Of a DNA stretch of 64,000 bases, positions 18,559 through 42,604 are shown in pieces. The notes under the pieces are model-generated. The model worked only from the letters and a program-made list of their open reading frames with translations. It was not told the origin of the DNA and ran no database searches. The DNA is from Desulfobulbaceae bacterium. GTDB taxonomy: Bacteria > Desulfobacterota > Desulfobulbia > Desulfobulbales > Desulfocapsaceae. Each line of letters begins with the position of its first letter. The stretch's first letter is position 1. The stretch spans positions 1-64,000 of the forward strand of contig JAABSV010000004.1 in assembly GCA_011390165.1 (NCBI GenBank), in the 5' to 3' direction. Made by a program: the position numbers and the translations under genes.

Positions 18559-19758
18559 TTACGGCAATATTTGCATCGCATCGGCGAATCTGGTCAGTGT
18601 TTCCAGTCCGTTGTCGGTGACCAGATGGGTGTTTTCAATTCCCGCCACCCCCAGTCCCGGAAAGATTGCCTTCGGTTCCAGGGCGATGATCATCCCCGCC
18701 GCCAGCGGCAGCCGCTGCCCCTTGGCAATGAAGGGAAATTCATCCAGTTCGAGGCCGATCCCATGGCCGGTAAAGCGGATACGCCGTTCACCGGCCCCCA
18801 TGAAGGCCTCGGCGTAGCCGGCCTCACCGGCCCGGGCAAGCATCAGCTCGTAGAGGTCACCGCTGACCATCCCCGGTTTGGCCACCCCCTTCACCTCATC
18901 CTGGAGGGCCACCATCGCCTGGTGGGCGGCCTGAAGCCTGGCCGGTGGCGCACCGAGGGAAAAGATCCGGGTGTGGTCGGAGAGATAGCCATCCAGGGCA
19001 AAGACATAGTCAACCAGAACCGTCTCGTTCCTGGCAATCTTTTTTCGGCCGGCCCCTTGAGCGATCACTGGACTGACCCCCTTGCCACCGGTGGGGGAGG
19101 CAAGGTAACTGGGCACCGCCGCCCCATCACCGGAGAGGAGGTGGCCATAGAACATCTCCGCCCCCCACAGCCGCATGCGAACGATCCCCTGGTGGCCGAG
19201 GCTGCGGGCATAGCCCTCCAGCTCTCCGGCAACGGCCACCTCGGTCTTGCCGGCGGCGAGGATCTCCGGGACCCGGGCGGCAACGAGGTCGGAGAGGGCG
19301 GCGGCGGCCCGGATCCGCTCGATTTCCCAGGCCGACTTGACCGCCCGCTGCAACCGTATCTCGGTGCTGACATCGACCAGGCTGCTGGCCGGAAAGAGTT
19401 TCTGGTACTGAAAATAGAGGTTGGTCGGCAAAACATCGAGTTCCATGCCCAGTTGCTTCGGCAGCGGTAAGGCAAATTCGGCCAGGGTGGCCGGTATCGC
19501 CTTGACCCCGCTCACCTCACAGACCAAGGCCAGTGGCGACTCCTCCCTGGCCCGGGCAAACTCTTTGAACACCATCAGCAGCGACTCCCCCTCTACGGGG
19601 ACGTAGAGCCAGGCCTGCTGGGCGGTGGCGCCGTAGTAGAAGAGATCGGTCTTCTGGACAATCAGGGCCCCGTCGACCCCCTTGTCGGCCAGAGCCTGTT
19701 GCAGCCCGGCGATGCGGGCGGTACATTCGCCTGCCGGTACGGCATGCTGGTTGTTCAT
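18559..19758 (-). CDS. M24-family metallopeptidase homologue (Xaa-Pro peptidase/creatinase fold), copy 1
   Basis: A 399-residue protein with a creatinase N-domain and a pita-bread catalytic domain. The five metal ligands of M24 peptidases can be placed: two Asp in VDYVFALDGYLSDHTR, His in FTGHGIGLELDEFP, Glu in IALEPKAIF and Glu in GIENTHLVT. It would cleave X-Pro bonds or a related amide. Its place inside a beta-oxidation operon is odd. A second, closely similar copy lies at 33905-35134 in the mutase operon, which suggests a shared role tied to acyl-CoA catabolism. AAGGAG precedes ATG 19758. Confidence 0.9.
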   Translation of the reverse strand: MNNQHAVPAGECTARIAGLQQALADKGVDGALIVQKTDLFYYGATAQQAWLYVPVEGESLLMVFKEFARAREESPLALVCEVSGVKAIPATLAEFALPLPKQLGMELDVLPTNLYFQYQKLFPASSLVDVSTEIRLQRAVKSAWEIERIRAAAALSDLVAARVPEILAAGKTEVAVAGELEGYARSLGHQGIVRMRLWGAEMFYGHLLSGDGAAVPSYLASPTGGKGVSPVIAQGAGRKKIARNETVLVDYVFALDGYLSDHTRIFSLGAPPARLQAAHQAMVALQDEVKGVAKPGMVSGDLYELMLARAGEAGYAEAFMGAGERRIRFTGHGIGLELDEFPFIAKGQRLPLAAGMIIALEPKAIFPGLGVAGIENTHLVTDNGLETLTRFADAMQILP

Positions 19759-25794: not shown

Positions 25795-28700
25795 ATGCAC
25801 GCCGATATCCACGTTTACAAACCGAAAAATCTTGTCCGCGTGATTACCGCCACCTCCCTCTTCGACGGCCACGACGCCTCGACCAATATCATGCGGCGAA
25901 TTCTCCAGGATTCCGGGGTGGAAGTGATCCATCTGGCCCACAACCGCTCGGTACAGGAGCTTGTCGACACCGCCATTGACGAGGACGCCCAGGCCATCGC
26001 CATGTCGTCCTATCAGGGTGGGCACATGGAGGCCTTCAAATACATGATTGATCTGCTCCGGGAAAGGGGGGCGGACCATATCAAGGTGTTTGGTGGCGGT
26101 GGCGGGGTGATCGTCGCCGACGAGATCAAGGAGTTGGAAGCTTACGGGGTGACCAGGATCTACTCCCCGGAGGATGGTGCCAGCATGGGCCTGCAGGGTA
26201 TGATCAACCATATGGTCGAGTTGATCGATTTCCCTACCCTCCCCCACCATGATCTGCAAACGGAGAATCTGCTCCCGACCAGCCGCATGACCATCGCCGG
26301 TTTCATCACCGCCCTGCAACTGGCCAAGGCAAACGGCGGCGGCGAACTGGCCGAGTTGCTCGGCAGCCTCCAGCCGCTGCTCGAACGCCAACAGCCACCG
26401 GTGATCGGCATCACCGGCACCGGTGGGGCCGGAAAATCCTCGCTCACCGACGAGATCATTGTCCGCTTTCTTCACGATATCAAAGATATCCGTATTGCCG
26501 TGGTCAGCTGTGACCCTTCGCGGCGAAAGACCGGTGGGGCGCTGCTCGGCGACAGAATCCGGATGAACTCCATAGCCGGCAGCGACAGGGTCTATATGCG
26601 CAGTCTGGCCACCCGCAATTCCGCCAGTGAGATCTCCGAGGCTCTGCCGGAGGCGATCACCGTCCTCAAGGCGGCCGGCTTCGACCTGATCATCGCCGAA
26701 ACCGCCGGTATCGGCCAGGGAGACTCGAAGATCACTGAACTGGCCGATATCTCCCTCTACGTGATGACCAGTGAGTTCGGCGCGCCGTCGCAGCTGGAAA
26801 AGATTGACATGCTCGACTATGCCGATCTGATCGTGGTGAACAAGTTCGAAAAGAAGGGGAGCGACGACGCCCTGCGCGATATCCGCAAACAGGTGCAACG
26901 CAACCGCAAACAGTGGGACAAGGGGCCGGAAGAGATGCCGGTTTACGGCACCATCGCCTCGAAATTCAACGACGACGGGGTGACCGCTCTCTACCACGGT
27001 ATCATCGACCAGTTGGCAGCCAAAACCGGCCTCAAACTGCAGCCGCAGCTCCCCCGGCCGGCAGAGAAGGTTCCTTCCTCGAAGACCATCGTCATCCCCG
27101 GGGCAAGAATCCGCTACCTCTCTGAAATCGCCCTCACCATCCGCGACTACCACGCCGCCACCGCCAAAGAGGCTGGACGGATCCGTCAGTGGCACCACCT
27201 CGACGAGGCCTGCCGGCTGCTTGCCGGGCAGGAAGATCCGGCCCTCGGGGCGGTGGTCGAGGAGTTGACAAAACAGAGCAGAACGGCCAACGAAACACTG
27301 CAGCCCGCCACCCGCGCCGACCTGGAAAACTGGCCGGAGACGGTCAAGGCCTACTCCGGCGACGAGCTGGTCTACACTGTTCGAGGGCGGGAGATCCGTC
27401 TGCCCCTCACCAGCGAATCGCTCTCCCATTCCCGGATCCCGAAAATCTCCCTGCCCAAGTACAGCGACCCGGCCGATCTCTACACCTGGCGTCGGCGGGA
27501 AAACCTTCCCGGCTATTTCCCCTACACCGGCGGCGTCTTTCCTCTGAAACGGGCCGGCGAAGACCCCACCCGGATGTTCGCCGGTGAGGGCGGCCCGGCC
27601 CAGACCAACCGCCGCTTCCGTCTCCTCTCCGAGAATTATGAGGCCAAGCGGCTTTCCACCGCCTTCGACTCGGTCACCCTCTATGGCTGGGATCCGGCTC
27701 TGCGCCCGGACATCTACGGCAAGATCGGCACCTCGGGGGTGAGCATCTGCACCCTCGACGATGTTAAACTGCTCTACAGCGGCTTTCCCCTCTGCTCCCC
27801 CACCACCTCGGTGTCGATGACCATCAACGGGCCGGCACCGATCATTCTGGCCATGTTCATGAACACCGCCATCGACCAGCAGCTCGAGGCCTTGGCCGCC
27901 AGCACCGGCCGGGAGGCGGACGCCGAGGAACGGCAACGGGTCCGCGACGAGGTGCTCGGCAACGTTCGGGGGACAGTGCAGGCGGACATTCTCAAGGAGG
28001 ATCAGGGACAGAACACCTGCATCTTCTCCATCGAGTTCGCCCTGAAGATGATGGGCGACATCCAGGAGTACTTCATCGCCAAGAAGGTGAAAAACTTCTA
28101 TTCGGTCTCCGTCTCCGGCTACCATATCGCCGAGGCCGGTGCCAACCCGATCACCCAGCTGGCCCTCACCCTCTCCAACGGCTTCACCTACGTCGAGTAC
28201 TATCTCTCCCGGGGTATGGCCATTGACGATATCGCCCCCAACCTCTCCTTCTTCTTCTCCAACGGCATGGACCCGGAATACACGGTGATCGGCCGGGTGG
28301 CCAGGCGTATCTGGGCGATTGCCATGCGCGAGCGCTACGGCGCCTCGCCAGCCTCCCAGCGCCTGAAGTACCACATCCAGACCTCCGGCCGCTCCCTGCA
28401 CAGCCAGGAGATCCAGTTCAACGATATCCGCACCACCCTCCAGGCCCTCTGCGCCATCTACGACAATTGCAACAGCCTGCACACCAACGCCTACGACGAG
28501 GCGATCACCACGCCGAGTTCGGAGTCGGTACGCCGGGCTTTGGCCATCCAGTTGATCATCAACCGTGAGTGGGGGCTGGCCAAAAATGAGAATCCCAGCC
28601 AGGGGAGCTTTATCGTCGAGGATCTCACCGATCTGGTCGAAGAGGCAGTCCTCCTCGAGTTCGACCGGCTGACCGAGCGGGGCGGGGTGCTTGGGGCGAT

Positions 28701-29073
28701 GGAGACCGGCTACCAGCGCAGCCGGATCCAGGAGGAGTCGATGTACTACGAGGGGTTGAAGCACTCCGGCGCCTACCCGATCATCGGGGTCAACACCTTC
28801 CGTAACCCGGACCTGGATCTAGCCGCCCAAAACGCCACCGTGGAACTGGCCCGGGCCAGCGACGAGGAAAAAGATGGGCAGATCGCCCGCCTGGCCGCTT
28901 TCCAGCAGCGCCATGCCGACGAGAGCCCCGCCGCCCTGGCCCGCCTGAAGGAGGTCGCCCTGCGCGGCGAAAACATCTTTGCCGAACTGCTTGAGACGGT
29001 GCAGTGCTGTAGCCTCGGGCAGATTACCAACGCCCTCTACGAGGTGGGCGGCCAGTACCGGCGGAACATGTAA
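25795..29073 (+). CDS. icmF: Fused isobutyryl-CoA mutase IcmF
   Basis: A 1092-residue fusion with the IcmF order: B12-binding domain (residues 1-150, with the cobalamin motif DGHDAST at about 24), MeaB-like G-protein chaperone (P-loop [16 protein letters not shown] near 204), linker, and a TIM-barrel mutase (about 530-1092). The substrate pocket carries Phe near 582 (TGGVFPLKR) where methylmalonyl-CoA mutase has Tyr, Gln near 739 (QNTCIF) where that enzyme has Arg, and the catalytic His near 777 (SGYHIAEAG). This pattern is diagnostic of isobutyryl-/n-butyryl-CoA mutase activity, with isovaleryl/pivalyl-CoA as a known side reaction. It would feed isobutyrate into the butyrate operon. AAGGAG precedes ATG 25795. 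Confidence 0.95.
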
Positions 29074-31302: not shown

Positions 31303-31824
31303 TCAGAATTCGATCCCCTGCTGGGCCTTGATCCCCTGTTCGTAGCCGTGCTTGACCGACTCCATGGACGTGACGGTATCGGCTATTTCAATCAGTCTGG
31401 GATGGGCCTGTCGACCGGTGATAATCACCGACAGGCGGGGCGGCCGGCCAGCCAGCAGCCTGACAATCTCCTCCACATCAAGAAAATCGTAGAGCGGCAG
31501 GTAGGTGATCTCGTCGAGGATGAGCAGATCGTACTGGTCACCGGCGACAAGCTTTTCGGCCAGGGCAAAGCCCTCCCGGGCCGCCTGCCGGTCCTCGTCG
31601 ATCTTCTCCTTAATAAAGACAAAGCCCCGGCCGCAGATGAACCAGTCAAGGCCCGGAGTCTTCTCGGCCATCAGCCTCTCCCCGTACCGCCCCTGCCCTT
31701 TAAGGAACTGGAGAACACAGACCTTCTGGCCGTGCCCGAGGGCGCGAAAGGCGGTCCCCAGGGCCGCCGTGGTCTTTCCCTTGCCGTTACCGGTTATGAC
31801 AAGTATCCTGCCCTGCAAGCTCAT
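31303..31824 (-). CDS. cobA: Cob(I)yrinic acid a,c-diamide adenosyltransferase
   Basis: About 173 residues of the CobA/CobO/BtuR family. The P-loop ITGNGKGKTTAALGTAFRA is at the N-terminus, LLILDEITYLPLY is the Walker B region, and VIITGRQAHPRLIEIADTVT is a family hallmark. It adenosylates corrinoids with ATP to give adenosylcobalamin, the cofactor of both mutases in this window. The start at ATG 31824 (MSLQGRIL) has GGAGG at the right distance. No riboswitch is visible upstream; 31825-32099 shows nothing recognisable. Confidence 0.95.
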   Translation of the reverse strand: MSLQGRILVITGNGKGKTTAALGTAFRALGHGQKVCVLQFLKGQGRYGERLMAEKTPGLDWFICGRGFVFIKEKIDEDRQAAREGFALAEKLVAGDQYDLLILDEITYLPLYDFLDVEEIVRLLAGRPPRLSVIITGRQAHPRLIEIADTVTSMESVKHGYEQGIKAQQGIEF

Positions 31825-32099
31825 CCATACCTCCATCCACGTAGATCAATCGCCCCAGCCACCATGAGTCTGCCCGGGATCTACCCGGCGACTCGGCAAG
31901 CATACTCCATCAGTCGGGTATCGCCCAGCTTTTCCTTTCCTGCCTGGGAAAATGGCAGGGTACAACAACTCCCTCTTGTGCTCCGACCGCCGGCGCGGTA
32001 GTAAGAGACCATCTTTGCCGTCAACGCCGCTGCCACCCGGGACAACCGGGCAGTGTGCCACGGTCGGCAACCACTTTACTTGGCAGGAACCGAAGCATT

Positions 32100-33904: not shown

Positions 33905-35134
33905 TCAAGGCAGACGGGTGATCTGGTCGGGGTACGTCCCCAGGGTCACCAGCCCGTCGTCGCTGACCAGATGGGTGTTTTCGATCCCCACCACACCCCG
34001 GCCGGGAAAGACCACCTTCGGTTCGATGGCAATGATCATCCCGGCGGCCAGGGGAAGCCGTTGTCCCTTGGCGATAAAGGGGTACTCATCCAGTTCCAGG
34101 CCGATACCGTGGCCGGTAAAGCGGACTCTTTTCCTGTCGTGGCCCATGAAGTGGCGGCCATAGCCCAGCTCTGCCACCGCCGCCAGCATGTACTCATAGA
34201 GATCACCGCTCACCACTCCCGGTCTGGCCTCTTTTTTCACCAGCTCCTGGATGTGGAGCATCGCCTGATGTGCCGCCTGCAACTCGTCGGCGACCGGGCC
34301 GAGGGAAAAGATCCTGGTGTGGTCACTCAGGTAGCCATCGAGGGCAAAGACGTAGTCCACCAGTACCGGTTCGTTCCGACCGATCTTCCGGAAGCCGGCC
34401 CCCTGGCTGACCACGCCGCTCACTCCCTCACCGCCGGTGGGCGAGGAGTGGTAGCTGGAGACGGCGGCGGCCGGGCCGGCCATCAGATGGCCGAAAAAGA
34501 GCTCGCCACCCCACAGCCGCATCCGGACGATACCCTGATGGCCGAGACTGCGCGCATACCCTTCCAGCTCACTGGAGAGGAGGATCTCACTCTTGCCGGC
34601 AACCAGCAACTCAGCAGCCCTGGCAGCAACCTTATCGGAGAGGGCTGCCGCCGCCTTGATCCTGGCGATCTCAAAATTTGACTTCACCGCCCGGATTAGT
34701 CGGATCTGCTCGGCAATGTCGACGATGGTGCAGCCGGCAAAGAGTTTTTGGTATTGAAAGAAGTGGCTGGTGGGCAGGACATCCAGTTCCATGCCCAGCT
34801 CTGCTACCGGCGGATAGCCATACTCGGCCAGTTTGCCGGCGATATCCCGGGTGCCGTTGACCTCGACCACCTCGGGCAGAGGCGATTCCCTCCGGGCCCG
34901 GGCAAAATCCCTGAAGATGAGAAGCAGCGGTTGACCAGCCGCCGGCACATAGAGCCAGCCCTGCTGGAAGGTGCCGCTGAAGTAGTAGAGATCGGTCTTC
35001 TGGACGATGAGGGCAGCCCCAATCCCTTCCGTCTGCAGGGCCTGCTGCAGCCGTCTCAGCCGTCCATCCAGTTCCTCGGCCGCTCCGCCGACTGGGCCGG
35101 CATTGCCGACTACTGCTGAGCCCTTACCCTCCAT
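33905..35134 (-). CDS. M24-family metallopeptidase homologue, copy 2
   Basis: About 409 residues and strongly similar to the copy at 18559-19758 along the whole length (shared LIVQKTDL, LEGYARSLGHQGIVRMRLWG, VDYVFALDGYLSDHTRIFSL, FTGHGIGLELDE). All five metal ligands (Asp, Asp, His, Glu, Glu) are present in the same motifs. It ends the minus-strand mutase operon. ATG 35134 overlaps the end of meaB by 11 nt and has AAAGGAGGG. The upstream in-frame ATG at 35188 lies within meaB and is less likely. Its job in a mutase operon is unknown. Confidence 0.9.
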   Translation of the reverse strand: MEGKGSAVVGNAGPVGGAAEELDGRLRRLQQALQTEGIGAALIVQKTDLYYFSGTFQQGWLYVPAAGQPLLLIFRDFARARRESPLPEVVEVNGTRDIAGKLAEYGYPPVAELGMELDVLPTSHFFQYQKLFAGCTIVDIAEQIRLIRAVKSNFEIARIKAAAALSDKVAARAAELLVAGKSEILLSSELEGYARSLGHQGIVRMRLWGGELFFGHLMAGPAAAVSSYHSSPTGGEGVSGVVSQGAGFRKIGRNEPVLVDYVFALDGYLSDHTRIFSLGPVADELQAAHQAMLHIQELVKKEARPGVVSGDLYEYMLAAVAELGYGRHFMGHDRKRVRFTGHGIGLELDEYPFIAKGQRLPLAAGMIIAIEPKVVFPGRGVVGIENTHLVSDDGLVTLGTYPDQITRLP

Positions 35135-36176
35135 TTTCCCTCCTTTGGCCACTATCCGCTTCCGCTCCGACCACCGCCGAAAAATCACGGATCACCCCGC
35201 CTGCCTCGAGCAGAGCAGCGGGGAAAACACGACCTACCAGCTGCCGGGCGATCCGCTGCGGTTCCCGGTGTTGCCGGCGCATCTTGCCGGCAAATTGGGC
35301 AAAGGCCTCGTTGTCGGGGATTTTCTCGGCGGCAATCCTCTCCATCTCTTCCCGTATCGCCTTGCGCAGATCACTGACGTACTGGAGATCCCTTCTCTTC
35401 TCGAAGGCGGCAGTCTGGTGCAGATAGCGCCGGTGGTCGGCAAGCCCGGCATAGAGCTGGTCAACACCGGCATCACGGTCGGCCGAGGTAGAGAGCACCG
35501 GTGGGTGCCAGGGGAGGCCTCCGGCAACCTGTTCCTTCCTCTCCAGCATCCGTTCGATGACCAGGCGCATATCGTCTGCCCCCGGCCGGTCAGCCTTATT
35601 GATCACAAAGAGATCGGCGATCTCGACCAGCCCGGACTTCATCGCCTGGATGGTATCCCCCGACTCCGGGGTCAAGACCACCACCACCGTGTCGGTGGCC
35701 ATGAGGATATCCAGTTCCGACTGGCCAACCCCCACCGTCTCGATGAGAATCACCTGCCGACCACTGGCAGCCAGCACCCAGGAGGCCTCCCGGCTCTTTC
35801 GCGAAAGCCCGCCCAGCACCCTGCCGGCACTCATGCTGCGGAAAAAACAGTCGCCACGATCCTTCTGGAACTGCATGCGAACCCGGTCGCCAAGCAGAGC
35901 GCCACCGGTGAAGGGGCTGCTCGGGTCGACGGCAATCACCGCCACCGACAGCTGGTCGCCAACAAAACGAGCAACCAGCTTGTCCACCAGCGTGCTCTTG
36001 CCGGCACCGGGGGGACCGGTGATACCGATGTAGAGAGCCTCGTCGGCATGGGGGTAGACCCTCTCACGTATCGCCCCGGAATCGGGATGGTCCCGTTCAA
36101 GCATGGAGATCAGCCTGGCAACCGCCGGTTTTTTCCCGGCCAGCGCCTCGGCTAAAAGGGTATCGAGTTCGCTCAT
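35124..36176 (-). CDS. meaB: MeaB-type mutase-associated GTPase chaperone
   Basis: A 350-residue G3E-type GTPase. P-loop GITGPPGAGKSTLVDKL near residue 54, [32 protein letters not shown], and the NKADRPGAD base-specificity loop are all visible. It gates and protects an adenosylcobalamin mutase, presumably the one encoded immediately upstream (small subunit 36196, large subunit 36637). The C-terminal dimerisation segment is present, ending in a short Gly/Glu tail that overlaps the next gene. Confidence 0.96.
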   Translation of the reverse strand: MSELDTLLAEALAGKKPAVARLISMLERDHPDSGAIRERVYPHADEALYIGITGPPGAGKSTLVDKLVARFVGDQLSVAVIAVDPSSPFTGGALLGDRVRMQFQKDRGDCFFRSMSAGRVLGGLSRKSREASWVLAASGRQVILIETVGVGQSELDILMATDTVVVVLTPESGDTIQAMKSGLVEIADLFVINKADRPGADDMRLVIERMLERKEQVAGGLPWHPPVLSTSADRDAGVDQLYAGLADHRRYLHQTAAFEKRRDLQYVSDLRKAIREEMERIAAEKIPDNEAFAQFAGKMRRQHREPQRIARQLVGRVFPAALLEAGGVIRDFSAVVGAEADSGQRRENGG

Positions 36177-36195: not shown

Positions 36196-36594
36196 CTATC
36201 CTTGTACGCACTCTTTCATCGCCTGGACGATGCTCTCCATTGGGGTATCCGGCAGAAAGACCCTGTACACCCCGTGTTCCTGCACGAGTTTACGGGCATC
36301 GGCGGGGGCCATTACCCCCCCCATGAAGACCTTCATATTTTCCATCCCTCTCTCCCGAAGCAGCCGCACCACCTTCGGCCCGAGGGTCATGTGGGCACCG
36401 CCGAGAGAACTGATACCGACGATGTCGGCATCCTCCTCGATGGCCGCTTCGACGATCTGTTCGGGGAACTGATTGCCCAGATAGATCACATCCATCCCGG
36501 CCTCTTTCAAAAACTGACTGACCAGATAGACCCCCCGCCAGTGGATATCAAGGCCCAGTTTGGCCATCACGACACGTATCTTTCTCTCCATCAT
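36196..36594 (-). CDS. B12-binding small subunit of an acyl-CoA mutase
   Basis: A 132-residue stand-alone cobalamin-binding domain. The DxHxxG motif reads DIHWRG at residues 16-21 with His18 as the cobalt ligand, followed by DADIVGISSLGGAHM and KVFMGGVMAPADARKL, the rest of the base-off/His-on nucleotide-loop pocket. It should pair with the 565-residue large subunit encoded 42 nt upstream. The large/small split resembles isobutyryl- and 2-hydroxyisobutyryl-CoA mutases more than the usual single-chain or heterodimeric methylmalonyl-CoA mutases. Confidence 0.93.
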   Translation of the reverse strand: MMERKIRVVMAKLGLDIHWRGVYLVSQFLKEAGMDVIYLGNQFPEQIVEAAIEEDADIVGISSLGGAHMTLGPKVVRLLRERGMENMKVFMGGVMAPADARKLVQEHGVYRVFLPDTPMESIVQAMKECVQG

Positions 36595-36636: not shown

Positions 36637-38334
36637 TTAGACCAGTGGAAAGGCCCACAAGCCGAACTCCTCCCGAAAGACATCCTCAATCTCGCCCAGG
36701 GTGACCAGGTTTTTGATCGCCTCGATGGTGTAGGGGTAGAGATTTTCGCTGCTGTGGCATTTCTCCCGCAGGGTCTGGAGGCAGCGGGCGACCTGCCGGT
36801 CATCACGCTCCTGACGAAGGGCGGCCAGCTTGGCCTTTTGTCTGCTGACCGTTTCCGGGTATTCGAATACCTCGATCTCACGGGTCTTTTCCTGACCTTC
36901 AGCGGCCAGATAGTTGACCCCGACGATCTTGTATTGCCCGGACTCAATGGCCTTCTGGTACTTCCAGTTATAGCTGCTGATCTCCCGGTGCAGCCAGCCC
37001 GATTCCACCGCCTTGACCAGCCCGCCCATGGCATCGATTTTGGCGATGGCGGCCTCGATCCGTTTGACCATCTCGTCGGTGAGTGATTCGACGTAATAGG
37101 AACCGGCCAGCGGGTCGACGGTGTTGACCACCCCGGTTTCAGCCTGGATGATCTGCTGGGAGCGGAGGGAAATAAGGGCCGCCTCTTCGGTGGGGGCGCT
37201 GTAGGCCTCGTCGTAGGAGTCGATATGGAGGGACTGGCAGCCCCCCAGTACCGCCGCCAGCCCCTGGATGGCCGAGCGGGCGATGTTGTTGTAGGGTTCG
37301 GTGGCCGGCAGGGTGACCCCGGCGGTCTGGACATGGAAACGCATGAGCAGCGATTTCTTCTTTTTCGCCCCGAAGCGATCCTTCATGATCCGATAAAAGA
37401 CCTTCCGACTGGCCCGGCACTTGGCGATTTCCTCGAAGAAATCGTTGTGCAGATCCCAGAAAAAGGAGATTCGCGGTGCAAAATCGTCAATATCCATTCC
37501 CCGGCGGATCAGTTCGTCGGCGGTGGCGATGGCGTTGCTCAGGGCTATGGCCACCTCCTGAACGGCATCGGTCCCCGCCTCGCGGAGATTGTAGCCGTTG
37601 TAGCTCACCGGGTTCCAGCGGGGCACGTTCTTGCAGATCCACTCGATCACATCACACTGCAGGCGGAAGGAGGCGGCCGGGGGAAGAACCTCCGGGCCGC
37701 TGCCGACACAGGTCTCCATGATGAAATCGTTCTGACAGGTACCGGCGACATCCTTCAGGGAGATCCCCCGCTGTTCGGCGACGGCAAAGTACATCCCCGG
37801 CAGGACGATACTGGTGCTGGGTAGATGGGTGACGATGGAGGTGCTCACCTTCGACTGGTCGATATCCTTGAAAAAGGCATCCATGTCCCAGAGGGAATCC
37901 ACCGCCGCCCCGCAGGCGCCGACATTGCCCTCCGCCTCCGGGTCATCGGAATTGTAGCCGCGAATGGTCGGCAGATCGAAGAGAATGCTCACCCCGGTGG
38001 CGCCATGGTCGAGAAGGTACCTGATCCTCCTGTTGCAGTCCTCCGGCGCCCCGAGGCCGGCCAGCTGCCTGACCGTAAAGAGCCTGCCCCGGTACATGTT
38101 GGCGTAGACCCCGCGCAGAAAGGGGGGCTGCCCGGAAAAGCCGATATCCTGCAGGTAGTCGGTTTCCTGCAGATCGGCCGGGGTGTACTGGAGCTTGATG
38201 GGGATTCCCGAGTGGGTGGTGTATTTTCCCTCCGTCTGCCGGTCGCGCTCACTGAGATCGTTTTCCAGCCAGCCACTGTAGCCCTGCTCTATCCGGACGA
38301 CCGCCGCCTGGTTAAAAAGTCGTATCTTTGCCAT
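36637..38334 (-). CDS. Large subunit of a non-canonical acyl-CoA mutase
   Basis: A 565-residue TIM-barrel subunit of the methylmalonyl-CoA mutase family lacking a B12 domain, the size of HcmA/IcmA-type subunits. Family features are clear: GVYANMYRGRLFTVRQ, LLMRFHVQTAG, GGCQSLHIDSYDEAYSAPTE, DPLAGSYYVESLT. By hand alignment the pocket differs from known members. Tyr89 of methylmalonyl-CoA mutase is Leu91 here (RQLAGL). The Arg207 region is VGSGPEV with a Gly/Ser and an extra residue. The catalytic His244 is Asn249 (YNGYNLREAG). The HCM Asp117 position is Leu118. It is therefore unlikely to act on methylmalonyl-CoA; the substrate is unknown. It lies between CoA-transferase and small-subunit genes. 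Confidence 0.88.
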   Translation of the reverse strand: MAKIRLFNQAAVVRIEQGYSGWLENDLSERDRQTEGKYTTHSGIPIKLQYTPADLQETDYLQDIGFSGQPPFLRGVYANMYRGRLFTVRQLAGLGAPEDCNRRIRYLLDHGATGVSILFDLPTIRGYNSDDPEAEGNVGACGAAVDSLWDMDAFFKDIDQSKVSTSIVTHLPSTSIVLPGMYFAVAEQRGISLKDVAGTCQNDFIMETCVGSGPEVLPPAASFRLQCDVIEWICKNVPRWNPVSYNGYNLREAGTDAVQEVAIALSNAIATADELIRRGMDIDDFAPRISFFWDLHNDFFEEIAKCRASRKVFYRIMKDRFGAKKKKSLLMRFHVQTAGVTLPATEPYNNIARSAIQGLAAVLGGCQSLHIDSYDEAYSAPTEEAALISLRSQQIIQAETGVVNTVDPLAGSYYVESLTDEMVKRIEAAIAKIDAMGGLVKAVESGWLHREISSYNWKYQKAIESGQYKIVGVNYLAAEGQEKTREIEVFEYPETVSRQKAKLAALRQERDDRQVARCLQTLREKCHSSENLYPYTIEAIKNLVTLGEIEDVFREEFGLWAFPLV

Positions 38335-38474: not shown

Positions 38475-39263
38475 TCAGTATTTCATATAGATCCCCTCTG
38501 GATCGACCTTCTCCCGTAACACCCGTAACTCATTGCTCTTTGGCGGGGAAATGGCTGCCGCCCTGGTGGTATCGATGGCAAAGGCGGTCTGCGCCCGGAT
38601 TCCGGCCAGGGTGACACCCAGTTCCTGATAAAAGGAGTGGACGTACATCTCCCTGCTCTCCGGATCAAAGAGCATCACCCCCATGGTGGAAACCACCGCG
38701 TAGGGGCCACCGCTCAGACCCAGCTCACTGCGCATGGCCAGAGAGCTGCCATCCATTCCCCGACAGCGCCAGCCGGGGCTGGTGATGAAATCGACCTGCT
38801 CGACGAAACGCCGTTTTTCATGGAGCATGATGATGATCGTCTTTTTGGCCAGCAGGGCGATGTCACTGGCTCCGCCGGAGCCTTCGAACCGTTTTCGGGG
38901 CCGATTGTAGTCACCGATACAGGTGGAGTTGAGATTGCCGTACCTGTCCACCTGGGCACCACCGAGAAAGCCCTTGTCAATCTTGCCGCTCTGCAGGAAC
39001 TGTCCCACGATCTCCATGGAGGTGGGGCTCCATTTGGTGCCATACACCCCCCGCGGGTCGGCGACACAGAAGGGCAGGGACTCCGGGTTGCAGTCGTAGG
39101 CCACCGCCTCCATCAGCACCTTCATCTTGGCGGCATGGGTCTTTTTGGCCAGGCCGGCAGCCACCAGCGGGATTCCGGTGCCGACCAGCACCATTTCGTT
39201 GTCCTCCAGCAGCCGGCTGGCGGCGATCACCATCATTTCCAGTTGCGAATAGGCTGCAGCCAT
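38475..39263 (-). CDS. CoA-transferase beta subunit (glutaconate CoA-transferase GctB-like)
   Basis: About 262 residues of the family I CoA-transferase beta type. The start has EMVLVGTGIPLVAAGLAKKT, KVLMEAVAYD holds a Glu at the place of the catalytic residue (without the usual following Gly), and FLGGAQVDRYGNLNSTCIGD and GSGGASDIALLAKKT are family blocks. It should pair with the alpha subunit encoded one nucleotide upstream (TGA then G then ATG). The acid activated is unknown; it presumably makes the CoA thioester used by the mutase that follows. The start at ATG 39263 was chosen for that tight coupling. Confidence 0.88.
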   Translation of the reverse strand: MAAAYSQLEMMVIAASRLLEDNEMVLVGTGIPLVAAGLAKKTHAAKMKVLMEAVAYDCNPESLPFCVADPRGVYGTKWSPTSMEIVGQFLQSGKIDKGFLGGAQVDRYGNLNSTCIGDYNRPRKRFEGSGGASDIALLAKKTIIIMLHEKRRFVEQVDFITSPGWRCRGMDGSSLAMRSELGLSGGPYAVVSTMGVMLFDPESREMYVHSFYQELGVTLAGIRAQTAFAIDTTRAAAISPPKSNELRVLREKVDPEGIYMKY

Positions 39264-39264
39264 C

Positions 39265-40260
39265 TCAGCAGTCCTCCCCGATCTTATCAAGCCGCCTGAG
39301 GATATCGGGGGCATAGCCGATATCGGGGTCGGCGACCAGTTTCGCCAACCTTTTCTCTCCGATGCGGGCGAGATAGTCGGCAAAGGAGTCGACCCCATGC
39401 ACCCAGTGGGCCAGCCATTTCTGCATACTTTCCGTTTCCTTCGATGCCTTGATGTACTCCTGGAACCACCAGGGGTCGTTATCGTAGTAACCATGGACGG
39501 CAGTGGGGTGGGCACCAAAGGGGACCTCGACGATGGCATCGACCATCTCGCCGGGAATCACATTGGCCTCCCGGTTCTCCAGCAGTTTTTCATTGGCGAC
39601 AATCTTTTCCGCCGAGATTACGGTGACCTTGGCGGCGACCGCAGCGTAATAGTCGAGGAAACTGCCGCCGGTGATCCGTGCCGTACCGTCCTCACCCACC
39701 TCCTGGACATGGAGTATACAGACATCGGGGCGGATGGCCGGAACAAGGACCACCTCCTCCCCTTCCCAGAAGGGGTCGGTCATGGTAACAAATTTCTTTT
39801 TTGCCACCTTCGGGTCCTTGCCGCGCAGGGTGGCAAAACCGTCGTTATTCGGGTTGAGCAGATCCGAGCCGCGCATGAATCTGGTGGGGATAAAGGGAAT
39901 CCCCATCGCCCCGGCGAGAATGCGCATGGTACCGGAGCCCACCGTCCAGTCGTCGTGGAGAAAGCCGGGAACATCAGCATCCTTTTCGTACTGGCGGATA
40001 AAATTGTAGGGATGGCCAAAGACCTCGTGGCCGATATAGCTGGTCTCGGTTTTGTCGACACATCCGGCACCGATCAACAGATCGGTATCCGGGCCACCGG
40101 GGTTGTTGACGATGTGGAGGTTCCTCACTCCGGCCCTGATCAGCTGAAAGACCATGGCCATCGGCTTTCTGATCAGGGTCCAGCCACCAACCCACAACCT
40201 CTCCCCGGGGTGGACGTAGTCGGTGATCTGTTCCAGGCGTATCCTCTTATTTTGCTCCAT
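39265..40260 (-). CDS. CoA-transferase alpha subunit (glutaconate CoA-transferase GctA-like)
   Basis: About 331 residues. VHPGERLWVGGWTLIRKPMA at the start and VRNLHIVNNPGGPDTDLLIG form the CoA-transferase alpha fold, and ILHVQEVGEDGTARITGGSF is a late family block. The C-terminal extension (about 80 residues) is GctA-like. It is the first gene of the sigma-54-type operon running to 33905. ATG 40260 follows AGGAGAGG. The leader carries a hairpin and the promoter described separately. A 3-oxoacid CoA-transferase is less likely, given the length and the split genes. Confidence 0.88.
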   Translation of the reverse strand: MEQNKRIRLEQITDYVHPGERLWVGGWTLIRKPMAMVFQLIRAGVRNLHIVNNPGGPDTDLLIGAGCVDKTETSYIGHEVFGHPYNFIRQYEKDADVPGFLHDDWTVGSGTMRILAGAMGIPFIPTRFMRGSDLLNPNNDGFATLRGKDPKVAKKKFVTMTDPFWEGEEVVLVPAIRPDVCILHVQEVGEDGTARITGGSFLDYYAAVAAKVTVISAEKIVANEKLLENREANVIPGEMVDAIVEVPFGAHPTAVHGYYDNDPWWFQEYIKASKETESMQKWLAHWVHGVDSFADYLARIGEKRLAKLVADPDIGYAPDILRRLDKIGEDC

Positions 40261-40801: not shown

Positions 40802-42604
40802 ATGTCCGTATCCCAACCACAATTCCTGCCGTTCAGCAGCGAACCGCTGGAGGACATGTCCCACTTCCTCTGGCAAGCGAGCGCCGATGCGATCATCTCC
40901 ATCGGCGAAAGCGAGATCGCCCTCAATCCGGCAGCCCATGCCCTGTTGGCGAAAACCGCCGCCGCTTTGCTGCCGGCCAGCTCCGAGGAAGTGGAGCGCC
41001 CCGCTGCACCGCCTGCAGAACTGCTGGGAAGGCTCCTTGCCGAACTGTGCCAGGCCCTTGCCACCGACCGGCACCACCTGGACAGCGGCGATGGCCGGCA
41101 AAGCGACGCCTTTTTTGCAAACGCTGAGGAGCTCTGTTTCCACGGCCGCTGGTTTTCGGTGCGGACTTTTCCCTCGGCCGGCGGCCGGCACCACTACATG
41201 GCCCGGGATATTTCCGAACGGAAATTCTTTGCCGGGGAGATGGAGCGTCTTCAGGAAACCAATATTGAACTGAACGAGATCATCGAACTGAGCGCCGATG
41301 GTCTGGTCAGCGTCGACCACAGCGGCAAGATCCTTCGTCTGAACAGCGCCTACAAGCGGATTCTCGGGATCAAAAACGAGAATTTCGTCGGCCAGCCGGC
41401 CACCTCTCTGGTGGAAAAGGGCTACCTTCAGGAGTTGGTCTCGCCCCATGTCCTGCGGGACCACAAGGCGAAAAACATCGTTGTGCCGGTTAAGGGCAAG
41501 GAGGTTCTGCTCACCGGCCGGCCGGTGTTCAACGAAAACGGCCGGCTGGTCCGGGTGGTCGCCAATATCCGCGACCTCACCACCCTGAACAGGCTGAAAA
41601 ACGAGTTACAGCGCTACCACGAATTGGCCAACCGCTACGAGACCGAGATCAGCCACCTGCGGGCCAGGGAGATCGAGTCGGAGATCATCGGCTGCAGCAC
41701 CAGCACCACCCGGATGCTGGCCCTCGCCTCCCAGGCCTCCAGGGTCGACTCGACGGTACTGGTCTATGGCGAGACCGGCACCGGCAAGGAGGTTCTGGTC
41801 AAGACCATCCACAAGTTGAGCGAACGGCGGGAGGGGCCCTTCATCGCGGTCAACTGCTCGTCGATCCCTGAGTCGCTGATCGAATCGGAACTTTTCGGCT
41901 ACGAGGCAGGCTCGTTCACCGATTCGAACAAAAAGGGGAAGATCGGCCTTTTCGAGGCGGCCAACGGCGGCACCTTCTTTCTCGACGAAATTTCCGAAAT
42001 GTCCCTGGCCACCCAGGCCAAGGTGCTGCGGGTTATCCAGGAGAGAAATATCCGCCGGATCGGGGCGAGCAGGGACAACCCCATCGACGTCCGGATCATC
42101 GCCGCCAGCAACAGGCGACTGAAGGAGTGTATCGGCGACGGCACCTTCCGGGCCGACCTCTTCTACCGGCTGGACATCATCAGCATCGACATCCCGCCGT
42201 TGCGGCAGCGCAAGGAGGACATCCCCCTGTTGATCAACTACTTCCTGGACAAATACAACAAAAAGTTCAACCGCACCAAAAGCATTCCGGAAAAGGAGAT
42301 TCTTCTCCTGCTCAGCTACGACTGGCCCGGCAACATCCGGGAACTGGAAAACATGATCGAGCGCTACGTGGTCCTGAGCAGCGGCCTCTTCCTCGACAGC
42401 ACCACTCTCGACGAGGGGCGGGGCAGAGCGGAACCACCGGCCGGGCGGGTCACCTGCCTGCGCAGCCACCTGCGGGCTGAGGAAGAGAGATTGATCGACG
42501 AGGCCTACCGCCGCTGTCGGAGCACCAGGAAAACCGCCGAGGCGCTCAACGTCAGCCAGTCCACCATCGTCCGTCGGCTGGGAAAATCGCTTACTCGACG
42601 GTAA
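40802..42604 (+). CDS. PAS-containing sigma-54-dependent transcriptional activator
   Basis: A 600-residue enhancer-binding protein. Two PAS-like regions occupy about residues 20-270 (the second with SADGLVSVDHSGKILRLNSA). The AAA+ domain spans about 310-540, with Walker A GETGTGKE, Walker B GGTFFLDEI, NRRLKE and the RADLFYRL arginine-finger region. The sigma-54-contacting loop reads GSFTDS (370-375) instead of the canonical GAFTGA. The C-terminus ends in a Fis-type helix-turn-helix (KTAEALNVSQSTIVRRLGK). It is divergent from the mutase operon and probably switches it on in response to a ligand sensed by the PAS domains. Its 3' end overlaps glmS by 14 nt in convergent orientation. Confidence 0.93.
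   Translation: MSVSQPQFLPFSSEPLEDMSHFLWQASADAIISIGESEIALNPAAHALLAKTAAALLPASSEEVERPAAPPAELLGRLLAELCQALATDRHHLDSGDGRQSDAFFANAEELCFHGRWFSVRTFPSAGGRHHYMARDISERKFFAGEMERLQETNIELNEIIELSADGLVSVDHSGKILRLNSAYKRILGIKNENFVGQPATSLVEKGYLQELVSPHVLRDHKAKNIVVPVKGKEVLLTGRPVFNENGRLVRVVANIRDLTTLNRLKNELQRYHELANRYETEISHLRAREIESEIIGCSTSTTRMLALASQASRVDSTVLVYGETGTGKEVLVKTIHKLSERREGPFIAVNCSSIPESLIESELFGYEAGSFTDSNKKGKIGLFEAANGGTFFLDEISEMSLATQAKVLRVIQERNIRRIGASRDNPIDVRIIAASNRRLKECIGDGTFRADLFYRLDIISIDIPPLRQRKEDIPLLINYFLDKYNKKFNRTKSIPEKEILLLLSYDWPGNIRELENMIERYVVLSSGLFLDSTTLDEGRGRAEPPAGRVTCLRSHLRAEEERLIDEAYRRCRSTRKTAEALNVSQSTIVRRLGKSLTRR

Follow-up and report, generated by a model that had tools for sequence, protein, structure and literature searches.

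The window analyzed here, the whole 64,000-nucleotide stretch of contig JAABSV010000004.1 from a Desulfobulbaceae bacterium, contains a run of minus-strand genes in the order CoA-transferase subunit A, CoA-transferase subunit B, mutase large subunit, small subunit, MeaB-like GTPase, and M24 protein (Table 1). The large subunit was matched by PF01642 at 582 bits and by TIGR00641 at 594.6 bits (cut-off, 303.8). Both CoA-transferase genes encode PF01144 subunits, and subunit B carries the aligned Glu, which we take to be the catalytic Glu, in accordance with a family I CoA-transferase of the GctAB type (38475-40260). Glutaconate CoA-transferase GctAB (1poi) is the best solved relative of both subunits, although the window pair, unlike it, is linked to an acyl-CoA mutase.

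Table 1. Features of the window and of related loci (position numbers without a locus prefix are those of the window)
Feature	Coordinates	Strand	Basis or remark
IcmF, outside operon, internal control	25795..29073	+	NF045497 1857 bits, above cut-off
Cob(I)alamin adenosyltransferase (cobA)	31303..31836	-	B12 supply close to the operon
M24 (prolidase-like) metallopeptidase	33905..35188	-	last gene of run
MeaB-like GTPase	35124..36176	-	TIGR00750 288 bits, above cut-off; PF03308
B12-binding small subunit (DIHWRG)	36196..36594	-	59.5% identical to small subunit in L159
Mutase large subunit, putatively RcmA-type	36637..38334	-	565 aa; PF01642, TIGR00641, alignments, tree
CoA-transferase subunit B, GctB-like	38475..39263	-	aligned Glu; 1poi_B 171 bits; PF01144
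CoA-transferase subunit A, GctA-like	39265..40260	-	1poi_A 189 bits; PF01144; longer ORF start 40323
Sigma-54-dependent regulator, divergent	40802..42604	+	orthologue also divergent in L186
Second M24 copy in window	18562-19734	-	65%
Mutase large subunit of genome G419	L159:7276-8949		62.7% identical to window large subunit
M24-like gene	L159:3119-4426
M24-like gene	L161:9578-10774
M24-like gene	L164:6219-7409
M24-like gene	L036:4062-5210
M24-like gene	L042:5166-6383

Residues of the large subunit were assigned with phmmer against 2-hydroxyisobutyryl-CoA mutase (HCM; 4r3u), human methylmalonyl-CoA mutase (MCM), and P. shermanii MCM and with MAFFT alignments of 35, 115, and 148 sequences. The original prediction, made from a hand alignment, had matched Tyr89 with Leu91, His244 with Asn249, and Asp117 of HCM with Leu118; phmmer and all MAFFT alignments agreed on the three replacements. 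Its claim that Gly211/Ser212 plus one inserted residue face the Arg207 site was likewise recovered in all alignments, the programs differing in which residue stands opposite Arg207 (Gly211 with phmmer versus MCM, Ser212 with phmmer versus HCM and with MAFFT). The proposed internal control also held, as the IcmF of the window kept Phe, Gln, and His in the 115- and 148-sequence alignments, where the MCM of the same genome, a second control, showed Tyr, Arg, and His. Two further differences came to light, namely, a two-residue insertion after V168-T169-H170 and the replacement of Thr166 by Val168. The protein thus has the Tyr89, Arg207, and His244 of MCM (1req, 2xij; ∼36 to 37% identity) all replaced, while sharing with it the fold, the B12 chemistry, and most CoA-contact residues. 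For their part, the Phe89, Gln207, and His244 of isobutyryl-CoA mutase/IcmF and the Asp117 and His244 of HcmA-type enzymes are missing, and the residue facing Asp117 is nonpolar, as in RcmA-type mutases (Leu118; Val in L159, see below). As judged from these residues, altered thioester handling through the His-to-Asn change is plausible; Asn249 could hydrogen-bond the thioester carbonyl but could not act as a general acid.

An AlphaFold2 model built on 44 aligned sequences had a mean pLDDT of 88.9 and a pTM of 0.91. Values by block were 92 for residues 241 to 250, 82 for residues 211 to 220, and 65 for residues 81 to 90, with residues 78 to 83 below 50. The best Foldseek match was 4r3u_A (TM score, 0.94; rmsd, 1.8), followed by MCM entries that included the mutants H244A (1e1c_A) and Y89F (5req_A).

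The 148 mutases compared comprise 145 genomic sequences, chosen by their similarity to the window or the Bacillus aerolatus protein and hence no survey, plus 3 reference fragments. Asn was found at site 244 in 40 of them, all 40 with both the +2 and the +1 insertions, and His in the other 108, none of which had either insertion (MAFFT). Since both insertions accompany every Asn-type sequence and no His-type sequence, chance or sequencing error can be excluded as the source of the substitutions. Site 89 of the Asn-type sequences is occupied by Leu (32/40) or Ile (8/40). In a quick tree of 88 sequences, all 40 of the Asn type and 48 of the 108 of the His type, the Asn-type sequences formed one clade arising by a single change (SH-aLRT, 100), with HCM and IcmF as long branches. 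The suggestion that these residues might mark a clade of their own was thereby borne out. The same clade, with the same support, includes the ligase-linked mutase in L159 that we take to be that of Kyrpidia tusciae (see below).

Three motif subgroups were distinguished: A, with GSxxE and NGYNLREAG (the window mutase and 9 others); B, with an Arg before the insertion and NGYNLR (17 sequences); and C, with GYNYRE (13 sequences). Subgroup C forms one branch of the 88-sequence tree and A plus B the other (support, 99). Subgroup A was not recovered as a single clade in this tree, the window mutase, L004-5, L006-8, the Bacilli, and subgroup B sharing one fork, nor was a closer grouping of the window mutase with the Bacilli. 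The pair facing sites 206 and 207 is Gly-Ser in 10/10 subgroup-A sequences, Arg followed by Ser (12), Asn (2), Gly (2), or Arg (1) in subgroup B, and Thr/Ala followed by Ile/Thr/Val in subgroup C. Thus, an Arg lies next to or at the 207 site in all 17 subgroup-B sequences, including the mutase of the Desulfotomaculum geothermicum acetone cluster, and therefore does not track a carboxylated substrate within the clade. The original argument that loss of Arg speaks against a carboxylated substrate stands in part, in that the neighbors of close relatives do point to a noncarboxylated acyl group. Asp takes the place of Asn366 throughout the 40 Asn-type sequences, but 9 of 107 His-type sequences (IcmF omitted) have it as well. 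Site 170 is His in all 27 sequences of A and B, and Cys (12) or Ser (1) in C. His170 was considered as a possible stand-in for His244, with this His present in A and B and absent from C. At the 117 site, the window, L004, and L005 have Leu instead of Val.

The closest named relative of the window mutase is that of B. aerolatus (L033; 64% identity), encoded in the order GntR regulator, MeaB, large subunit, small subunit, ligase, and short SDR frame. The ligase scored 502 bits against 2-hydroxyisobutyryl-CoA synthetase 6hdw, the next match scoring 240. Among the 398 genomes of its class that were searched, itself included, three others contained mutases 80 to 83% identical to the B. aerolatus one. 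In one of these, G419, the mutase (L159) adjoins a ligase of the HCL type, which scored 566 bits against 6hdw and 269 against the next match, and carries Ile89, Val at the 117 site, Gly-Ser with both insertions, and Asn244. The other G419 mutase reported in the search (L189) is of the His type, with Tyr and Arg.

The abstract of the RcmAB paper by Weichler et al. (2015) reportedly gives Asp117 to Val as the main difference from HCM. The Val at this site in L159 agrees with that description, and L159 was taken as RcmA; G419 is, we infer, Kyrpidia tusciae DSM 2912, and the evidence, the operon included, argues strongly for the L159 mutase being its RcmA. Only under this identification does the K. 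tusciae enzyme show the Asn-type pocket to be active. Reportedly, RcmAB of K. tusciae converts 2-hydroxyisobutyryl-CoA and (R)-3-hydroxybutyryl-CoA into each other, with preference for the (R) form, hcl is described as sharing an operon with meaH and either hcmAB or rcmAB, and D. biacutus is described as using an RcmAB-like mutase (PMC7176365). The window enzyme shares with the presumed RcmAB both insertions, Asn244, Val168, Gly-Ser, hydrophobic residues at sites 89 and 117, and the MeaB and small-subunit genes alongside. It differs in having Leu91 and Leu118 instead of Ile and Val, and in being accompanied by a CoA-transferase pair and a sigma-54 regulator, whereas L159 has an HCL ligase, an SDR, and a GntR regulator. 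Two earlier suggestions found no support in this comparison: the pocket is not an unassigned one if the K. tusciae mutase carries Ile89, Gly-Ser plus insertion, and Asn244, and the missing Asp117 loses its force against 2-hydroxyisobutyryl-CoA if that mutase has Val there. No mention of Asn at site 244 turned up in the literature listings searched, which did not extend to the text of the original RcmAB paper and two related ones.

A second link to hydroxyacid metabolism came from the acetone cluster of Desulfotomaculum (Desulfoscipio) geothermicum/geothermicus DSM 3669 (L042). Its mutase subunits are reported as acetone induced, with a proposed conversion of 2-hydroxyisobutyryl-CoA to 3-hydroxybutyryl-CoA (PMC8084838). 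Around them lie, in the published tag order, two HGD-D proteins, a BcrAD-type ATPase, a BtrH_N protein, and an enoyl-CoA hydratase (Pfam), and a 676-aa thiamine enzyme is found farther along (L190). The large subunit shares with the window protein the clade, both insertions, Asn244, and Leu89, but is only 47.7% identical, carries the subgroup-B Arg at the insertion site, and is set among HGD-D-type genes and near a thiamine enzyme. The subgroup-A mutase of G285 (L114), which shares 62% identity with that of the window, has in its vicinity an HGD-D protein and a thiamine enzyme of 684 aa; over 676 aa, this enzyme and its D. geothermicum counterpart are 54.7% identical. The mutase L005, which has the window's Leu at the 117 site, is part of an acetone-type cluster.

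Gene neighborhoods were counted in 26 context loci, 24 with an Asn-type mutase and two (L162 and L163) with His-type paralogues of D. geothermicum, and in 44 His-type control loci, those of at least 12 kb out of 67. An HCL-like ligase was present in 7 of the 24 Asn-type loci (L033, the query source, L115, L116, L117, L159, L160, and L165) and an acetone-type thiamine enzyme in L114 (query source) and L042, where the full enzyme lies just beyond the locus edge and a separate 289-aa TPP-domain protein (47%) was also seen. Either gene thus occurred in 7/9 other loci of subgroup A, 2/7 of B, and 0/8 of C, several Asn-type loci being so short that absence from them is weak evidence, and in 0/44 controls. 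The two subgroup-A loci with neither are L113, truncated where its contig ends, and L161, which has another AMP-binding enzyme. The subgroup-C loci lacking both in the examined stretches are L035, L036, L037, L038, L043, L044, L164, and L166; L164 has an acetyl-CoA hydrolase/transferase-type gene nearby.

Some other contexts were noted in passing. In L116 (2806-4284, minus strand) and L117 (5571-7025, minus strand), an HpaB-family protein (PF11794/PF03241) that by eye resembles 4-hydroxybutyryl-CoA dehydratase follows the mutase and the HCL-like ligase. In Candidatus Methanolliviera (L040:10001-15270), an Asn-type mutase is accompanied by more large- and small-subunit matches on the opposite strand and by two HGD-D-like matches. 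The eight genomes of family f42 (G039, G075, G108, G137, G164, G189, G212, and G234) each gave 16 to 30 mutase-like candidates at first look, far above most, and three per genome were scored.

The CoA-transferase pair sets the window operon apart, as it was absent at an E value of ≤1e-15 from all 26 context loci and all 44 controls. No HCL ligase was found in the window operon, a matter of context rather than an enzyme property. The genome itself, 91% complete, carries its own MCM and IcmF and yielded neither a close HCL (best match, 35%) nor a close acetone-type thiamine enzyme (best match to the L114 query, 27%); HCL-type activation and an acetone pathway were accordingly rejected for this organism, and nothing in it therefore names the substrate. 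At an E value of ≤1e-160, a threshold that misses fragments, such a mutase was found in this genome only among 193, including 14 congeners. One congener, G805, nevertheless has on contig C215 (L186) the sigma-54 regulator (52%) and CoA-transferase subunits A (67%) and B (73%), followed at the contig end by 64 residues of a mutase N terminus whose best match is the window protein (50%, 79 bits; next, B. aerolatus, 65 bits); the contig ends inside the gene, before the Asn249 site. At the other end of this contig, a short frame resembles by eye an IS3-type transposase. The patchy spread of the mutase suggests horizontal transfer.

An M24 gene lies beside 5 of the 24 Asn-type mutases (L036, L042, L159, L161, and L164) and beside none of the 44 controls, and an acetone-induced Xaa-Pro aminopeptidase is reported in D. 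arcticum (PMC8084838). Its role as a specific partner of the mutase is uncertain, because a close M24 gene occurs in 14 of 15 genomes of the genus, this one included, with the window copy a paralogue of the genus-wide gene, because the window holds a second copy, and because the M24 proteins beside other mutases are only 28 to 40% identical.

We consider it probable that the window gene encodes the large subunit of an RcmAB-type AdoCbl-dependent 2-hydroxyisobutyryl-CoA/(R)-3-hydroxybutyryl-CoA mutase acting on an acid activated by the CoA-transferase. The observed residues, clade, gene order, and neighborhoods of relatives are what we infer the substrate, stereochemistry, direction, and use of the CoA-transferase from. 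The GctAB-like enzyme would most likely place CoA on 2-hydroxyisobutyrate or a near homologue (2-hydroxy-2-methylbutyrate), and may thus take over the activation that a ligase normally performs. The mutase would then shift the CO-SCoA group by radical rearrangement to give (R)-3-hydroxybutyryl-CoA or its homologue, with β-oxidation of the (R)-3-hydroxyacyl-CoA as the presumed final stage. The MeaB-like GTPase would serve in cofactor loading and protection, and control of the operon probably falls to the divergent sigma-54 regulator. Against this reading stand the want of a close HCL or acetone-type thiamine enzyme in the 91%-complete genome, Leu118, compared with Val in G419, the lack of a CoA-transferase pair in the other context loci, the failure of subgroup A to form one clade in the tree, and the indirect grounds for taking L159 as RcmA.

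The same architecture could instead serve another substrate, a tertiary 2-hydroxyacid that is larger or branched in some other way and is chosen by the CoA-transferase and by Leu118. In favor of this are the CoA-transferase standing in for HCL and the Leu itself, which L004 and L005 share. Induction of the same enzymes on butanone or pentanones, as reported in PMC8084838 and PMC7888143, likewise suggests that the family may take homologues; however, L005 has the same Leu within an acetone-type cluster, and we regard this substrate shift as unlikely. A branched acyl-CoA with no hydroxyl, such as isobutyryl- or pivalyl-CoA, would suit the loss of Arg and the hydrophobic residues at positions 91 and 118, but the genome already has an IcmF and the relatives are tied to hydroxyacid genes, making such a substrate quite improbable.

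Orthology to HCM is suggested by 4r3u being the closest solved structure by both sequence and fold, and HcmAB of Aquincola tertiaricarbonis does share with the window enzyme the two-subunit layout and probably the reaction type. HCM, however, keeps His, Asp117, Ile90, and Gln at 207 and has no insertions, identity is 41.7%, and the window protein falls in another clade; on these defining residues and the tree, orthology was ruled out as hardly credible. An equally poor case can be made for a degenerating MCM with no function: three canonical residues are lost, yet the signature is kept in 40 sequences, the frame is open, the small subunit and operon are intact, and MCM and IcmF are encoded elsewhere in the genome, so decay was discarded. 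More speculatively, the Asn-type clade may work without the conserved His by means of a remodeled pocket (the two insertions, Val168, His/Cys at 170, and Asn249) while the CoA-transferase-linked branch and subgroup C rearrange undescribed tertiary hydroxyacyl-CoA esters, a tentative proposal that we regard as unlikely.

Returning to the RcmAB-type assignment, most of the surprise of the residue changes would, on the alignments and tree, be explained by membership in an already described branch. What is left beyond it is an operon variant and the mechanistic question raised by the natural loss of a catalytic His. The assignment offers a likely function for genes matching MCM models in several phyla, and Asn-type mutases can be flagged simply by GYN in place of GYH plus the two insertions. 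Within one genus, two species seem to combine an Asn-type-like mutase with a CoA-transferase, whereas an ATP-dependent ligase is found in others. The clade also provides a natural His-to-Asn comparison with which to ask whether the rearrangement requires protonation of the thioester carbonyl by the active-site His.
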